Virus record (IMG/VR): IMGVR_UViG_3300003654_000037
Coordinates: 1 to 47,344 of that record
Length of the DNA stretch: 47,344 nt
Direction: 5' to 3' (one strand)
DNA from: a virus
Shown in pieces: positions 23,023-31,751 of this stretch (position 1 is its first letter; the number at the start of each line of letters is the position of its first letter). Made by a program: the position numbers and the translations under genes. The notes beneath the pieces were generated by a model, which worked only from the letters and a program-made list of their open reading frames with translations, was not told the DNA's origin and searched no databases.

Positions 23023-23766
23023 TCATATTTGTTCTAAAATATAATATTTAAATCTTATACCGTGAGTCATATTATGTTTAGATTTCCCCCGGCAAACTCT
23101 TGAAATATGGGTAGGTTGAATATTATAATATACACTTGCTTCAGTTACAGATTTAAAAATTAAATTTATTGTATTATCATCATTAAGAGATGCTACAGAT
23201 ACTTGTCTAGATTCAATGATAGATAATAATAATTTAGGATTGTTTTTACGAATCTCTTTCATTTTTATACTATGTCTATTACCAATTTCAATACGTCTTT
23301 CACTTGATAAATGAGCATATCCAAAAGTTGCTAATCCTTCTTTATGTTTATCTTTCATTATCTGAGAATGTCTTATATGTTTCTCTTTCCAAGATAATGA
23401 TGTTTTTAAAGAATTCAATCGTTTAATTTTGCTTTCTTCTGACTGTTTATAACCTCTTATTCCTTTTCCTCCTTCTGTATGATTAGTTAAATTAGCACCA
23501 ATACTCTTATATAATTTTATATATTGAACTTCTTTGTTATCAAGATTTTCATGATTTATATTATCTTCAATAAGTTCAATTACAGGTTTTAAATTTATAT
23601 TATTTAAAGATTTTATCCAACTATTAATATGAGTTAACTTACCAATAGTTCTTTTCCATTGATAAATATGTTGAGAATATCTTGATGAAAGCTTTACAAT
23701 GGTTTGACCAATGTATCTTACAGAATTATTTCTCGGATCTTTTAATATATAAATTGATCCCGTCAT
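23023..23766 (-). CDS. GIY-YIG homing endonuclease
   Basis: 247 aa. The GIY-YIG core is clear: SIYIL (Tyr6), VRYIGQ (Tyr18), Arg29 with His33, and a catalytic-type Glu79 in KEVQYIKL, ending near LTNHTEGGKG. A basic middle with SSERRIEIGNRHSIKMKE is typical of NUMOD3-like DNA-contacting regions. The C-terminus (KSVTEASVYYNIQPTHISRV, then CRGKSKH) is a helix-turn-helix of the NUMOD1 type. Its ATG overlaps the portal stop (ATGA), so it is translated with the portal gene. It is a selfish element between two core genes; no intron is needed to explain it. Confidence 0.9.
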   Translation of the reverse strand: MTGSIYILKDPRNNSVRYIGQTIVKLSSRYSQHIYQWKRTIGKLTHINSWIKSLNNINLKPVIELIEDNINHENLDNKEVQYIKLYKSIGANLTNHTEGGKGIRGYKQSEESKIKRLNSLKTSLSWKEKHIRHSQIMKDKHKEGLATFGYAHLSSERRIEIGNRHSIKMKEIRKNNPKLLLSIIESRQVSVASLNDDNTINLIFKSVTEASVYYNIQPTHISRVCRGKSKHNMTHGIRFKYYILEQI

Positions 23767-26516
23767 TTCTTTTTAGATTTTTTTACACCAGGAGAATATT
23801 GATTCTTATTTTCCTTGGCGATCTGTACATCCATTTGCTTCATTTGCATCTGATTTGACATCTTTTCTTTCTCTACTGCAATCTTTTGATCATTATTAAG
23901 AACTTTATTAGCTTCTTTACTTCTATCTAAAGACATAGTATCTTGAAACTGTTCTGTAGCTTGAATCTGACCTAAAGCATCCAGATAATCTGATTGTAAA
24001 TTTTGATCAATATCCTGCATAGCTCCATACCCTGCAGCTTTAATTTCAGCAACCAATACATCTCTTCTTCTATCTTTTTCTTTCTCCAAAGATTCATAAT
24101 CTTGTTGCATTTTCCTATCATTAACCTGAGCCTGAATAGATTCTTGTTGCATTTGTTGTTGATTAGCTGCTTCTTCTTGTCTAATGTTATTCATTTTGGT
24201 TTCAGTAGCTTTTAATACTATGTTCAGTTCTCCCATTGTATTAGCTGTCATTATAGTACCTAAATCATAGATAGATGCACCAGCTGTATTATTACTAATA
24301 GCCAGGTTCTTCATCTTTTCAATAATAGCTCTATAATTAGCCTTAGTCGTGCAATAGACATTAAGATCACGTAATAAAATATCTGTACCATTTATCTCAA
24401 AATTAACTCTCTCATCATTAGATGTCAGGTATTGTAATCTCAACGATGGTTTAGTTGACTGATAATATTGAGCTAAATCAGTTCTCATTTGATGTACTCT
24501 TGGCATTAGATAGTCTGAGTGTTGTATAAACAACATTTCAGTTTGTGCAAAAGAACCAGCAACAGCTTGTTCTATACCAGTTGCAGTATCTGTTTGTCCT
24601 ATTTGTTGTCCTAATCTTTGTGGGGTAACTCCTACAATTTCATAAGCTTGAGACTTAAAGTAATTTGCTAATTGAATCCGTGACATCATTCTATTAGTTT
24701 GGTCTAGATTCATCACTTGAAAATGGTTTTGTCCTAAAGCATTCTCTGTATTAGAAATAGATGTGTCCAATGGCAACATTTGAAAATTCTTCATTGCAAC
24801 ATATGCTTTAGCAAGATTGTTTTTACCCCAATCTTCTCCCATTGAATGTCTTGGTAATGAATTCTGATCAAATGCAATTATAGTACCTAATTCATCTATT
24901 AATATATCTTGTATTTGATTGTTTACAATATTATATCCTATTTGAAATGCCTTCATTAAATCTATTACACTTGTAGATCTTGTATTTCTATCAGAAAATA
25001 CAGCACCTTCAACTGGTAATTTACATCCATATAAACTATCATCACCTTTAAATTGAAACTTTAAACGTCCAATCTTATTTTGCTGAATGCCTAAATACAG
25101 TGGTGTTACTCCTCCTGGATTATTCATTCCCCAATAACTTGGTTGATTAGGACCTATCTTTACTCCTCCCATTACTTCATTTAACCATATCCAATCAATG
25201 TGTTCTCCAAAAATCAAAGTATCTTTTGTTTTATTTTTAAACAATACATTATTATATAATGGTTTATCAGTTATAATATATGACTCATCTACAATATCAG
25301 TAGTAACTACTCCTGCTTCATCTATTTTAGTTAAATGCCCCACTTTACGTTGGCTTTTCCAATAACCTGTTGTAGTACGTAGTAAAGAGTTCATACCTTC
25401 TCCGGCATAATCTTCAGATTGTCCATTAATCCAATTTACAATATCACCACCATTAGCAGCACTATCCCACATTGAAGTAAATTGTCTAAATCCTAATGAT
25501 GGCATATTAGTGTTCCAGTCATGTGATTTTGTAGCATCATAAAAAGAACCGTCATTTTGTTGTCCTCCTATTGTATATCCAGCAGACTTTATAGGGTATA
25601 TAGCTTCTAATGATTTGAGTTGATCTTCAGTCATTATATATCCATACTTATCTATAACATCAGCTACTGTCATCATCTCAATTTTACCTACCCAATTTCC
25701 TTGAGAGATATATCGTACTTCAGGAGATTTATGATAGAAGGTCAATACAGGATTCCATAATTCAACACCATAATCATCTTCTCCCATAATAAAATGCCAG
25801 AACTCTCTATCAGCAACAAGAGAATCTCTAAATCCTCTTTCTTCTAATTCATCCATAGAAAATCTATCAATATCAATCTCATGTTGATGAGAAGCCCATT
25901 GCTCAGATCCACTTCTATAATCTTTATTATAAAAGTTTTGAATTTCAGGTAATGATTTTAATTTTTCAGGAGATAGTTCTTCTTGCATTTCAGGATCTTC
26001 AGGATCCATACCTGCTTCTAATAATTTGGCTTTAAGTTTTAATTGAGCCTGAGATAATAAAACATGACCAACTTCATTATTTTTTTGTTCTAATAACTCA
26101 TTATAGGAATATTCGTCTACCCCTCTAAATGTTACTTTACTATTACGTTTAGCAAATTCACTAACTAATACATTGATAACATTTGGAATAATAGGATAAA
26201 ATTTAAGTTCTAATGCTGATATATCTTCTTGAGTTAAAGTTTCAACAAGATCTTTCATTTCATTATCTTCTTCAACAATATAATCAGATTTATCAATAAT
26301 ACCTTTGGCTAGTTTATAATTTTTCATTAATCTACGTGCATTTCTACGTAGTTGTTTTAAACCATTAAACTCCAGCCAATCTAAATTATTTGTAGTCCAT
26401 TCTTCATCTTTATCTTTTCTAGGTATAAACTGAATAGGTTGAGTTAATGATGTCATGCGTTTTATCTCAGATTTTTTACCTGACATAAGATCCATAGCGT
26501 TTAATACAAGTCCCAT
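23763..26516 (-). CDS. Portal protein
   Basis: 917 aa, within the usual size for crAss-like portals. The N-terminal region has a long helical clamp-like part (NGLKQLRRNARRLMKNYKLA). The middle is mixed alpha/beta, and a motif region QIGQTDTATGIEQAVAGSF is typical of crAss-like portals. The last ~130 residues are Gln/Lys-rich coiled coil (QQQMQQESIQAQVNDRK) ending in KKSKKK, which would form the barrel inside the head. It starts 8 bp after the terminase gene ends. It is the dodecameric DNA gate at the unique vertex (family knowledge). Confidence 0.85.
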   Translation of the reverse strand: MGLVLNAMDLMSGKKSEIKRMTSLTQPIQFIPRKDKDEEWTTNNLDWLEFNGLKQLRRNARRLMKNYKLAKGIIDKSDYIVEEDNEMKDLVETLTQEDISALELKFYPIIPNVINVLVSEFAKRNSKVTFRGVDEYSYNELLEQKNNEVGHVLLSQAQLKLKAKLLEAGMDPEDPEMQEELSPEKLKSLPEIQNFYNKDYRSGSEQWASHQHEIDIDRFSMDELEERGFRDSLVADREFWHFIMGEDDYGVELWNPVLTFYHKSPEVRYISQGNWVGKIEMMTVADVIDKYGYIMTEDQLKSLEAIYPIKSAGYTIGGQQNDGSFYDATKSHDWNTNMPSLGFRQFTSMWDSAANGGDIVNWINGQSEDYAGEGMNSLLRTTTGYWKSQRKVGHLTKIDEAGVVTTDIVDESYIITDKPLYNNVLFKNKTKDTLIFGEHIDWIWLNEVMGGVKIGPNQPSYWGMNNPGGVTPLYLGIQQNKIGRLKFQFKGDDSLYGCKLPVEGAVFSDRNTRSTSVIDLMKAFQIGYNIVNNQIQDILIDELGTIIAFDQNSLPRHSMGEDWGKNNLAKAYVAMKNFQMLPLDTSISNTENALGQNHFQVMNLDQTNRMMSRIQLANYFKSQAYEIVGVTPQRLGQQIGQTDTATGIEQAVAGSFAQTEMLFIQHSDYLMPRVHQMRTDLAQYYQSTKPSLRLQYLTSNDERVNFEINGTDILLRDLNVYCTTKANYRAIIEKMKNLAISNNTAGASIYDLGTIMTANTMGELNIVLKATETKMNNIRQEEAANQQQMQQESIQAQVNDRKMQQDYESLEKEKDRRRDVLVAEIKAAGYGAMQDIDQNLQSDYLDALGQIQATEQFQDTMSLDRSKEANKVLNNDQKIAVEKEKMSNQMQMKQMDVQIAKENKNQYSPGVKKSKKK

Positions 26517-26524
26517 AATGTGTT

Positions 26525-28729
26525 TTATTTTAAATTTTTAAATCCTGATCTTGGTGGTCTTTTAAATCCGTTTCTATTACCCATACCAATATGAGTAAAA
26601 GGTTGCACCTTTAATTTATACAAATTATTTGATTTATGCAAATTTATATCACTTTTATCTTCAAGTTTTTTTCTATGCCCTCTATTAGCATCTTGTACTT
26701 TTGCAAAAGCAATTAATGCTGCTAAAGCAACTAACCTATCCACATTGACATTAGTTCCATCACCATATCCTTCCATCTCAGTTATAGCCATGATATCAGG
26801 AATTCTTTCAATACCATATGTTGTTTTTACAATAGTACCATCTGGTTTTGTATCAACATCTATTTCTTCTTTAAGAAATTCAATTAAATAACTAAGTAAA
26901 TGAGCCTTAAATATAGTCCCTGTATTTTTCCAACCATATTCTTGATATACATTTGTATTAGCACCTATATCTTTTAAGAATACTATTTGACTTTTTGGTA
27001 CTAAATATCTCTGTCTTTTTTTAAGAATCATATAACCAATGAACAAAGATATATTATTTTCAATAATTCCCCAAGCATTATATATTTCTAATATCATTGA
27101 TAGTCTTTCATGAGTTTTGTTAATATCATCAAATCTACCACACCATGCCGCTACAATTTTATCTCTTTCTATATAATTTTCTATTACACCATGTCTATCT
27201 ATTCTAGTAACTTCTAATGGTGTTTTATAAATATATATAGAACATAATGATTCTGAAGTTGTAGTTTTACCCTCAGATACAGGATCTATTGAAGCATAAT
27301 ATGTACCAAATTCTATTTTTTCATCTGGTCTTTCATAAACTACAATAATTCCTGTTTTATCTTCAGTGTTCTTAGTAATTGGCCACTCTGAAATAGGAAG
27401 TTTATTACTCTTCTTAAATTCGGGTATTCCTACTGCATTTCTTTCTAGTTCTAAAAACTCATAAGCATATTCTTTTTCTTCTATTCTTCTTCTTTGAGCA
27501 GCCACTAAATTCATTGGAAATTTAGATACTTTTCTATGAGCAAAAGCCTCAGCTATATTTCTAGGATTCTGAGATATTCTATATTGATATTGTTCAGGAC
27601 TTAAATCTTTTTTTGCTTTCTTATTAGTCTCATCAATAGACAGTAATGCTTCTTCTACTAATGAATTACCAAACTCATCTATAAAAGGCATCATTGACCA
27701 TTGTTCTGGAATAAATAATCCAGATTCTCCTTCGGTTCCTTTATCATCTATAAGATTTGTAGTTACAGCATATATGTTGTTTTCTTTAGGGTGTTTTATT
27801 AATTGTTCTAAAGGTTTACATTGATCTAATTCACCTACAGAACCCCCGGCTATAAACATCCCAGTAACTATGTTACCCATTTTCATAGCAGGTAATAAAA
27901 ATTCTAAAGTAATATCCATACTAGGAGCCATACCTGCTTCTTCATACCAGAATATTGTAACTGGACCACCTACTCCACTTGCTGGATCTTTATCAAAAGT
28001 TAATCCTTGAATTACTCCTTTAAGTCCTACAAATTTACTTCTACCATTAGTTGTTTCTTCTATTTGTTGTTGCCACATTAAAACCTTACTAGGAGTCATA
28101 GGTCTATACCATGCAGTATGAGTATTTAAAAAAGATCTATATTCTTCTAGAAATTTCCAAGAACCTTTTTCATTAATCTTATCCTTTAAAGAACTTCCTA
28201 TTTTAAGTATAGGAGTTTCTTCAAACCATATTTGATTTATGAATTTAGCACAATGATAATACGAGAAACTTATTTGTCTTTTCTTGAGGATAGCACAATG
28301 TTGGAAATTCAATTCAGCTAGACATTCATATAGGGCCATATGATACTGAGTATCCCAAATATAAGGAAAAGTAAACTTCTTTTCCATCTTATTATTTAGT
28401 TGTAGAAAGTTTATCCAAAAATAGTAATCTCTAGGTAAATACCAAGTCTTTTCACCATTTTTGAATATTACACCTTTTCTAGATTTTAACTTTTGATCAT
28501 CCCAATATTTTCTAAAGTCTATACTCCCTTCTTTATAAGGACAATAGAATCCTCTGCTCTTAAAGATTAAAGCCTGAGAATTAAACTCATTAATAGTTTC
28601 ATCAAAAGCATACTTTCCAGGTATCTTAAATAGAGGTATTAAGAAATCTATAAAATCTTGTCTTGTGGTAAATTCGGTTATAGACCAATTATTATTTTCC
28701 CACGTAGGTACTTCTATAAAGTTAATCAT
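26525..28729 (-). CDS. terL: Terminase large subunit
   Basis: 734 aa. The ATPase half shows a divergent Walker A region near residues 148-158 (LKKRQISFSYY; no GK[ST]) as in other crAss-like terminases, and a Walker B with catalytic Glu in VTIFWYEEAGM (257-267). The nuclease half begins around 475 with YASIDPVSEG (Asp482), and EIYNAWGIIENN near 548-559 supplies a further acidic site. It packages DNA through the portal encoded just downstream (8-bp gap). It has a leader of AT-rich sequence and follows the 172-aa gene by 6 bp. The identification rests on motif order and context. Confidence 0.9.
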   Translation of the reverse strand: MINFIEVPTWENNNWSITEFTTRQDFIDFLIPLFKIPGKYAFDETINEFNSQALIFKSRGFYCPYKEGSIDFRKYWDDQKLKSRKGVIFKNGEKTWYLPRDYYFWINFLQLNNKMEKKFTFPYIWDTQYHMALYECLAELNFQHCAILKKRQISFSYYHCAKFINQIWFEETPILKIGSSLKDKINEKGSWKFLEEYRSFLNTHTAWYRPMTPSKVLMWQQQIEETTNGRSKFVGLKGVIQGLTFDKDPASGVGGPVTIFWYEEAGMAPSMDITLEFLLPAMKMGNIVTGMFIAGGSVGELDQCKPLEQLIKHPKENNIYAVTTNLIDDKGTEGESGLFIPEQWSMMPFIDEFGNSLVEEALLSIDETNKKAKKDLSPEQYQYRISQNPRNIAEAFAHRKVSKFPMNLVAAQRRRIEEKEYAYEFLELERNAVGIPEFKKSNKLPISEWPITKNTEDKTGIIVVYERPDEKIEFGTYYASIDPVSEGKTTTSESLCSIYIYKTPLEVTRIDRHGVIENYIERDKIVAAWCGRFDDINKTHERLSMILEIYNAWGIIENNISLFIGYMILKKRQRYLVPKSQIVFLKDIGANTNVYQEYGWKNTGTIFKAHLLSYLIEFLKEEIDVDTKPDGTIVKTTYGIERIPDIMAITEMEGYGDGTNVNVDRLVALAALIAFAKVQDANRGHRKKLEDKSDINLHKSNNLYKLKVQPFTHIGMGNRNGFKRPPRSGFKNLK

Positions 28730-28735
28730 ATTTTA

Positions 28736-29254
28736 TTAATTAGGACTATCATATGCAATGCGTTTATTACCACGAGCTCTACTTTTAAATTCATCTTGTT
28801 CTTGTTGAACTATTTTTTCTAATTCTTTAAATTCAGTAATAGTTTTACCAACAGATTTAAGTAATGATTGTAGAACAGTTGCACTACCATCCCGTCCTGC
28901 AGTAATAGGTTGTGTTCTAGCAAAGGTACCCATCTTTTCCATTAAAGATTTATTAGCTAAATAATACCTATAAGTAGGTGACATTGTTAATAACTCTAAT
29001 TTTGTCATAGCAAGTCTCATCACATCATCTTCTAAAGTATATACCCCAGGAAAATCAGCTAATAATATTTCTTCTTTATCTGTTTCTGGTACATTACAAT
29101 ATGCTCCTCTGGGAGAATATAAGAAATGTAAAAAAGAAAAAGCTGGAATAGCATTTTCATAAAAATCATGAACTGCTTTTAATTCAGGTATTAATAGACA
29201 TGTAGGATTAATCACTATATGTCCGTTGTCTATATCAAATATTTCTGGTATCAT
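28736..29254 (-). CDS. Conserved protein preceding terminase
   Basis: 172 aa from the Met at 29254 (MIPEIFDIDNGHIVINPTC). An in-frame upstream ATG at 29335 would add 27 hydrophobic residues but lies deep inside the previous gene, so I prefer the internal start; even so, it overlaps the 137-aa gene by 20 bp. The body is helical, with FLYSPRGAYCNVPETDKEE and a C-terminal helix (EFKELEKIVQQEQDEFKSRA). The position directly before terL is where a small terminase subunit could sit, but no helix-turn-helix is evident and this remains a guess. Confidence 0.6.
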   Translation of the reverse strand: MIPEIFDIDNGHIVINPTCLLIPELKAVHDFYENAIPAFSFLHFLYSPRGAYCNVPETDKEEILLADFPGVYTLEDDVMRLAMTKLELLTMSPTYRYYLANKSLMEKMGTFARTQPITAGRDGSATVLQSLLKSVGKTITEFKELEKIVQQEQDEFKSRARGNKRIAYDSPN

Positions 29255-29648
29255 ATGCTTTAAGTAATTTATTAATATACATTTTTCCAACAGGATTAGC
29301 AGAGTGTACGTGATATAAAGGTAGTTGCTTACCATTAGTAATACAATACTCTATTAAATACCTAGCACAATGGTATCCTGTTTTTTCTGAGAATGAATTA
29401 ATTAGCTTTAAATAATCTTCTTTAGAATTAAGTGTCATATTCATTAGTATTTCATCTTCATAGTGTTCTTCTGCTAAATCATGATCAAAACATATAGCAT
29501 CGGGTAATCCCCAAGCATTAATATATTTTTCAAATTCATTATAACTTTTAATCCATTTAACATCATAAGGTTGTTCTATTGGAGCAAATTGTAAATGATT
29601 ATTTATATGAGGATCTCTTATATCATCTAACCATATTAATATATTCAT
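29235..29648 (-). CDS. Cyclic-phosphate processing receiver-domain protein (cREC-like)
   Basis: 137 aa, single domain. The motifs are WLDDIRDP (Asp8, Asp9, Arg11), CFDHDLAEE (Asp55, His56, Asp57), GYHCARYLIEYC (about 91-102) and HVHSANPVGKMYI (113-125). This set matches the cyclic-phosphate processing receiver domains known from RNA-repair and related operons, which resemble response-regulator receivers but use conserved His and Asp residues. It overlaps the nuclease gene by 4 bp and the 172-aa gene by 20 bp. In a phage it could act on RNA ends with 2',3'-cyclic phosphates, for example after host tRNA cleavage (inference). Confidence 0.75.
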   Translation of the reverse strand: MNILIWLDDIRDPHINNHLQFAPIEQPYDVKWIKSYNEFEKYINAWGLPDAICFDHDLAEEHYEDEILMNMTLNSKEDYLKLINSFSEKTGYHCARYLIEYCITNGKQLPLYHVHSANPVGKMYINKLLKAYDTRNI

Positions 29649-30481
29649 TTTTTTGTAGGTATTAATTCTTTATTATCATGGATCCAATTGATTATTGCAA
29701 TTACTTCTGATTTAAGATATGGTATATCATAAGGAGTTACTTCTACTACAATAGGATTTCCTTGGTCATCTAATTTTGTTATAGGATATCCATACTTATC
29801 AACCCCTTCTACAGCAAAGGTAATGTGATGTAATGTGAGTTTACCTGGCTTTAATCTTGGATTATGTTTTAAAACCATATAAAGATACAAGCTTAATTGA
29901 ACTGCATAATGCCAATAATTACAATCATCTAAATGTGCAAGAGGCCCTGTCATCTTTTGTTTTACTCCATCCCATGAAGTATAACTTTCCATCTTAATTT
30001 CTTTGTTTGTTTTGTAGTCAATAATGTCTACTTTATCCCATACAACCTCTACTCTATCTGATTGACCACATATACCAGCAGACTTTAAATACATAAAGTG
30101 TTCTGGATATATACCTTCAGTTAAAGATTGATTTGGAGCGTGTTTGATATCATCATTATAAATAGGTCTTATAATAGGAATTTCTCTTCCCTCTCTCATA
30201 ATAGTTTCACAAGAGATTGTGTCTGCTTCTCTCTGGTCGTGGTAGAAAGTTCCTAATGTATTTGCTCTATTGCTTTCTCTACTCCAAATCTCTTGGATTT
30301 CTTCTGCAGGAATTCCATACCATTTAGACTTCTTATTCTTAGAAGACTTAATAGATTGAGATATAGGATCAAACTTTGGTTTAAATAGAGCAACTACTTT
30401 AGTAGAACTAATCCAATTAATACCATCTGCTTGATCAATACTTTGGTAATTATGATTTGTTACTTGAAAGGTTAGTGCCAT
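29645..30481 (-). CDS. PD-(D/E)XK nuclease (Cas4/RecB-like fold)
   Basis: 278 aa. The motifs follow the Cas4/RecB-type order: TLGTFYHDQRE (His81), an acidic helix region around Glu127, GQSDRVEVVWD (Asp142), VDIIDYKTNKE (Asp155, Lys157) and HYAVQLSLYLY (Gln195, Tyr199). These are the metal-binding and catalytic residues of PD-(D/E)XK exonucleases. No Cys cluster for an iron-sulfur centre is seen. A nuclease of this type is a regular member of crAss-like genomes. It may process replication or recombination intermediates before packaging. It overlaps its neighbours on both sides. Confidence 0.88.
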   Translation of the reverse strand: MALTFQVTNHNYQSIDQADGINWISSTKVVALFKPKFDPISQSIKSSKNKKSKWYGIPAEEIQEIWSRESNRANTLGTFYHDQREADTISCETIMREGREIPIIRPIYNDDIKHAPNQSLTEGIYPEHFMYLKSAGICGQSDRVEVVWDKVDIIDYKTNKEIKMESYTSWDGVKQKMTGPLAHLDDCNYWHYAVQLSLYLYMVLKHNPRLKPGKLTLHHITFAVEGVDKYGYPITKLDDQGNPIVVEVTPYDIPYLKSEVIAIINWIHDNKELIPTKK

Positions 30482-31109: not shown

Positions 31110-31396
31110 TTTGATTTTGATTTAGTTATTGCATCCCATCTAGGGGTATATACGTTACCACATCCGCTACTTAGATCTCTAGTTTTAAAAGCAAGTGTAC
31201 ATCCACAAAATGTACAACATGGTTGTAATCCAGGAGTTAAACAATTATCTCCTTTTAAATCTATAGCAGGACATGCATTACAGATCTTCATTCTTTCTGC
31301 TGAGATCTTCTCAACATACTTATTTTTAAATAAAGTATTCCAAATACCATTAAAGATATTCTTTCTATTCTTCCAAATTTGTTTTATCTTTTCCAT
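31106..31396 (-). CDS. Cys-cluster zinc-binding protein
   Basis: 96 aa. A basic N-terminus precedes RMKICNACPAIDLKGDNC and then CCTFCGCTLAFKTR, with a final GCGNVYTPRW. Eight Cys in CxxC-type pairs make two zinc-binding knuckles likely. I recall this architecture in small Bacteroidetes phage and host proteins of unknown function. It overlaps the HU-like gene by 32 bp and the following gene by 4 bp, so all are translated together. It may bind nucleic acid or a polymerase component (inference). Confidence 0.6.
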   Translation of the reverse strand: MEKIKQIWKNRKNIFNGIWNTLFKNKYVEKISAERMKICNACPAIDLKGDNCLTPGLQPCCTFCGCTLAFKTRDLSSGCGNVYTPRWDAITKSKSK

Positions 31397-31751
31397 AGCG
31401 TTTTTCTTTTATAGATTCTTTCTTTAATTTTAAGTCAGCAAATTGAAGTACTAATTTATCAAGTGTTTCTTTTTTATCTTCATATTGTTTTAAAATCACA
31501 CATTTAGTAAATGTAGTAGGAGTTATATTATTACTAACAGCCATGTTTTTAATCATAGAGGTGTCTAATTTCCAAGGTTTTACACTAAATACTCCAAAGT
31601 CAGCTATTGTAATAGAAATATTTTGTGGTTTACTTAAAGCATCTCTTACAGATTGCCAATACAACATAACTACATCTTCTACAAGATCATCACTGTATCC
31701 AAGCTTTTTAGCAGTTGGAGAAATAAACTGTTTGGCTTTATGTGGTAGCAA
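31365..31751 (-). CDS. HU/IHF-like DNA-binding protein
   Basis: 128 aa. Residues ~10-45 form the helical dimer region (ADLV-like: SDDLVEDVVMLYWQSVRDAL), followed by strands with ITIADFGVFSVKPWKL, matching the 'GxFxvk' turn of HU/IHF. The DNA-binding arm is reduced, and a Lys-rich helical tail is added (KKESIKEKRYGKDKT). crAss-like phages regularly encode one or two such IHF-related subunits near the packaging genes. It overlaps the winged-helix-like gene by 14 bp. It probably bends phage DNA for transcription or packaging. Confidence 0.75.
   Translation of the reverse strand: MLPHKAKQFISPTAKKLGYSDDLVEDVVMLYWQSVRDALSKPQNISITIADFGVFSVKPWKLDTSMIKNMAVSNNITPTTFTKCVILKQYEDKKETLDKLVLQFADLKLKKESIKEKRYGKDKTNLEE

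Follow-up and report, generated by a model that had tools for sequence, protein, structure and literature searches.

The cREC domain (PF20274), described in jumbo and medium phages (Iyer et al. 2021, PMC7824862), is predicted to open RNA 2',3'-cyclic phosphates and ADP-ribose 1''-2'' cyclic phosphate in a metal-independent reaction (PMC9503650; the same activity is predicted in PMC7824862). The domain was called experimentally uncharacterised in 2022 (PMC9503650), and the literature searched yielded no cREC assay. 2H phosphoesterases (LigT/CPDase-like) would share the 2',3'-cyclic phosphate substrate (PMC9503650) but their fold is unrelated, a duplicated unit supplying the two conserved histidines.

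Here, we describe a cREC gene in a crAss-like phage, located in a window that spans a whole IMG/VR record (47,344 bases). Its product shares the family, the DD-R, DHD and S-N motifs and the predicted fold with the jumbo and medium phage domain. In contrast to that domain, it is a stand-alone protein encoded among packaging genes, with no Nudix, Sir2, NAMPT, ligase or kinase to accompany it. The closest named relatives, 46% identical over 129 residues, come from Cellulophaga phi17:2 and phi4:1. These, too, are phages of a Bacteroidota host, but they encode cREC in a replication block, where uracil-DNA glycosylase/gp9 lies on one side and DNA polymerase on the other, and Macro and PARP genes occur at a greater distance. 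The cREC proteins encoded on Chryseobacterium chromosomes (about 36-44% identity) carry the same motifs, yet form a separate tree clade and occur in an operon with RNA ligase, phosphoesterase and RNase genes. The cREC family and its predicted role are already published, and the present gene adds another family member; no paper linking cREC with crAss-like phages was found in the literature searched, of which coverage was partial.

Family, conserved residues and modelled fold

The cREC gene is a minus-strand ORF at 29235-29648 with an ATG start, encoding 137 aa with the motifs WLDDIRDP, CFDHDLA and HSANP. A preliminary description of this DNA had reported the ORF and its motifs at exactly these coordinates and had proposed the cREC family, and both claims hold. 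The product matches PF20274 at 66.7 bits (E 3e-18; curated cut-off 27 bits) over model positions 2-87 of 88, nearly the whole model, and no other Pfam family appears at E up to 1, including the 2H phosphoesterases. PHROGs assigns it to phrog_1479, annotated as unknown function. Against a profile built from 47 relatives with its own sequence left out, the protein scores 158 bits, whereas 1000 shuffles of it reach at most 10 bits and the other frames of the window at most 10.1 bits. At the sequence level, the product is thus a full-length cREC member and the family call is solid. An ordinary two-component response regulator was considered and rejected, with no classical receiver family match and no histidine kinase among the scanned phage proteins.

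Alignment of 48 cREC sequences reveals that D8, D9, R11, D55, H56, D57, L58, G91, N118 and G121 are invariant. Motif 1 (D8, D9 and R11; 29616-29627, minus strand) lies at the end of strand 1, motif 2 (D55, H56 and D57; 29478-29486, minus strand) at the end of strand 3, and motif 3 (H115, S116 and N118; 29295-29306, minus strand) at the end of strand 4. Within motif 3, S116 is kept in 47/48 sequences and H115, the His of HSANP, in 35/48. The preliminary description had tied its reading to retention of the His and Asp residues among relatives: no change is seen at the Asp residues or at H56, but H115 is replaced by Gln in the other 13.

The AlphaFold2 model (pLDDT 88.4, pTM 0.79) predicts a receiver-like Rossmannoid fold composed of four strands (residues 2-7, 28-33, 51-54 and 111-114). 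Strands 1, 3 and 4 each bear a motif at their C-terminal end, and the Lys-bearing fifth strand of receivers is absent. The Foldseek hits to PDB receiver domains have marginal E-values (best 3.8e-3), among them the DesR receiver (prob 1.00, TM about 0.5, E 5.6e-3), while the nearest models in a viral library are cREC proteins (E down to 8.8e-10); a sequence search of solved structures returned chance matches only. From known receiver anatomy, we infer that cREC may be a receiver domain retaining the acidic pair, the acceptor Asp and the Ser/Thr, minus strand 5 and its Lys.

The variation of H115 and the lack of the Lys-bearing strand in the model are also what a degraded or non-catalytic receiver-like protein, binding only nucleotides or a partner, might display. 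We regard such a protein as improbable, given that every Asp is conserved, as are R11, H56, S116 and N118, and that the copy in a near-identical contig carries no sign of decay.

The slot between the PDDEXK nuclease and gp172-TerL

The near-identical contig IMGVR_UViG_3300003653_000052 (hereafter G001; 126,226 bases) matches the full length of the window at 99.7-100% identity and supplies most of the phage genome, although it may be incomplete. It encodes Crass_capsid, CrAss_Ring_1 and CrAss_Ring_2, placing the phage in Crassvirales, along with UDG, DNA ligase, DnaB, Toprim primase, dNMP kinase and DNA polymerase. The nearest named phages by TerL are crAss-like, at about 25% identity.

cREC and the neighbouring genes named here lie on the minus strand. 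Upstream of cREC is a PD-(D/E)XK nuclease of 278 aa (PDDEXK; 29645-30481; PF12705 23.4 bits, phrog_298 exonuclease), which is conserved in TerL relatives, and further upstream an IHF/HU-like DNA-binding protein (31365-31751; PF00216 20.3 bits, just below cut-off). Downstream are gp172 (28736-29254), a protein of unknown function found just upstream of TerL in relatives, the terminase large subunit (TerL; 26525-28729; phrog_6681) and the portal protein (23763-26516; phrog_6547). The ORF finder starts the gene before TerL at 29335 (28736-29335, 199 aa), but the true start is more probably at 29254, giving 172 aa, because that start is conserved and the relatives are mostly 170-172 aa. gp172 is itself conserved and is possibly a small terminase or part of the connector. 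The overlaps noted in the preliminary description are present on both sides: the PDDEXK stop and the cREC start share the 4 bases of an ATGA (29645-29648), and the cREC end, with the tail DTRNI, overlaps the probable gp172 start, as judged from relatives' starts, by 20 bases (29235-29254).

Comparison with 79 TerL relatives (62-76% identity) revealed a recurrent gene order, orf123-IHF-orf96-PDDEXK-[slot]-gp172-TerL, with both slot borders, PDDEXK and gp172, present in 65 of them. The slot is closed in 42 of these 65, mostly through a 4-base PDDEXK/gp172 overlap, nearly closed in one (111 bases), and occupied by other small genes in 22. None of the 65 carries cREC in the slot, and none was found elsewhere in 16 longer contigs of such relatives, using a search that does detect cREC in G000 and G001. 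Only in this phage, then, do the flanking packaging genes adjoin cREC; they are not its conserved partners. The preliminary description had placed cREC within a packaging and nuclease cluster, and the two overlaps could suggest that it works with the PDDEXK nuclease and terminase to package or process DNA. This functional tie is largely refuted, and we consider it very improbable: besides the 65 slots that are closed or otherwise filled, no other locus among the 80 viral cREC loci lies near TerL or this PDDEXK. cREC is thus a cargo gene in a variable slot, and its link to packaging is positional only.

The same overprinted tail, as NDTRNI or NDTRNS, closes the unrelated slot genes of L104, L111 and L123, and these shared gene ends, overprinted by the gp172 start, define a common 3' slot border. 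Other slot cargo includes a 91-aa protein that is GroES-like by eye, without a Pfam match, and WDGH-domain proteins (examples at L113:7033-7308, L110:4230-4688 and L116:7107-7502). Between the two near-identical contigs (the window against L002), differences cluster in the first part of PDDEXK (29645-30481) and the cREC start, and may mark a recombination tract.

Gene contexts of viral and cellular relatives

We found cREC relatives in 81 phage records. In named phages, the neighbours include NAMPT, Sir2, Nudix, RNA ligase, PNK, NMNAT, PnuC and tRNA nucleotidyltransferase. Scanning of 80 viral loci, with the closer set of relatives as query, detected TerL or this PDDEXK near cREC only at the copy in G001 itself. 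Across 45 cREC-bearing viral contigs, many of which are fragments, an RNA ligase above cut-off occurs in 6, KptA in 1 and SAK in 9; the few contigs with SAK and KptA support no general rule. In the tree, the window protein clusters with sequences from phages and Bacteroidota (support 99/96), apart from Chryseobacterium. Within this clade, L031 encodes KptA (140 bits) about 430 bases upstream of cREC, and L073 encodes a SAK HAD phosphatase directly downstream. On the evidence of this one locus, the KptA neighbour would fit a cREC product bearing a 2'-phosphate.

In a second crAss-like group (L082, L094-L096), the early gene block has cREC at its end; the L096 contig encodes Crass_capsid (79 bits), and L082 has PDDEXK, PolB and dNMP kinase in common with G001. 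The cREC of this group falls in another clade, which suggests from the sequences that cREC entered Crassvirales at least twice.

Cellular cREC loci number 79 and are mostly from Chryseobacterium. An Rnl2 RNA ligase (PF09414 and PF18043) lies near cREC in 51/76 of them, at a median of about 0.5 kb downstream, accompanied by calcineurin phosphoesterase in 55/76 and RNase_T in 57/76; as the Chryseobacterium loci come from one genus, they represent far fewer independent events than 51. The kinship with RNA-repair neighbourhoods named in the preliminary description is therefore borne out among relatives, which adjoin RNA ligases, KptA, PNK, Nudix, Sir2 and NAD-salvage genes. The co-occurring RNA ligase or kinase that it sought in the rest of the genome was not found in G001. 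Its interpretation overall is partly supported, holding for the cREC family and the relatives' context, while the packaging tie is not supported and the ligase or kinase partner was not found.

Pfam scans of most G001 proteins (the largest outside the scan being 4555, 2095+, 1712 and 1547 aa), together with direct family searches, detected no RNA ligase above cut-off, PNK, KptA or SAK phosphatase, and thus no self-sufficient RNA-repair set was seen. The sole ligase observed is an ATP-dependent DNA ligase (PF01068 75.7 bits; RNA_ligase 22.5 bits, below cut-off), and the complete phage RNA-repair pair of PNK and RNA ligase is lacking from this possibly incomplete contig. Nudix, Macro, Sir2 and NAD-salvage genes were likewise not seen in G001. 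No RNA-repair or NAD/ADP-ribose gene context was thus seen for its cREC; such contexts are common among members of the family and are no condition of membership.

Predicted activity and candidate substrates

Our preferred reading, to which we give an even chance, is that an intact orphan end-healing cREC is carried as cargo and opens a five-membered cyclic phosphate, 2',3' on RNA first, with a host ligase finishing the repair. The crAss-like phage would have picked up cREC in the PDDEXK/gp172-TerL slot; metal-independent ribotoxins would leave 2',3'-cyclic phosphates on RNA; cREC would hydrolyse these first of all among five-membered cyclic phosphates; and host enzymes would then finish and ligate the opened end. 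We infer catalysis, substrate, reliance on a host ligase and any gain against tRNA-cutting defences. The PF20274 match, the invariant active-site residues, the fold, the slot, the RNA-end enzymes beside relatives and the published prediction of this activity count in favour of this reading. Against it count the failure to find RNA ligase, PNK, KptA or SAK in G001, the scarcity of RNA ligase, KptA and SAK in viral contigs, and the position of cREC in a structural gene block, whereas RNA repair is expected early.

In a phage without its own RNA ligase, cREC would either supply host enzymes with its product or have a small-molecule substrate. The latter may be a cyclic phosphate, either of a nucleotide or derived from NAD (ADP-ribose 1''-2'' cyclic phosphate, cyclic ADP-ribose or a signalling cyclic oligonucleotide), making cREC a signal-degrading anti-defence enzyme, as proposed in PMC7824862 and PMC9503650. 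Such an orphan enzyme requires no ligase partner and fits this phage; Nudix, Sir2, NAMPT, NMNAT or PnuC genes adjoin cREC or are fused to it in named phages, and phi17:2, the closest named relative, encodes Macro and PARP. However, G001 shows none of the Nudix, Macro, Sir2 or NAD-salvage genes, and the cellular relatives are accompanied by RNA ligase, leaving a small-molecule substrate somewhat unlikely in our view. More speculatively, and at low probability, late-made orphan cREC in Crassvirales could be a stand-alone counter-defence that breaks down a cyclic-phosphate alarm signal or mends ribotoxin cuts via host ligase, with the PDDEXK-gp172 slot a general small-gene cargo site.

In this phage and in the second crAss-like group, cREC occurs alone, without ligase or Nudix partners, and therefore offers a clean test protein for the predicted activity. 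The Chryseobacterium operon supplies the cellular partner set for the same question, and more accessory genes of Crassvirales may be sought in the cargo slot next to TerL.

Two candidate RNA genes were observed in G001. A tRNA at L004:14479-14569 (RF00005 47.5 bits; 91-92 bases, unusually long) is called Lys-TTT by ARAGORN, but its anticodon stem pairs poorly by eye and its identity is unsure; a link to PrrC-type anticodon nucleases through this tRNA was considered and, given its length and poor anticodon stem, accorded no weight. The other is a candidate tmRNA at L004:5950-6338, uncalled by ARAGORN, which matches RF00023 at 59.7 bits (gathering 47).
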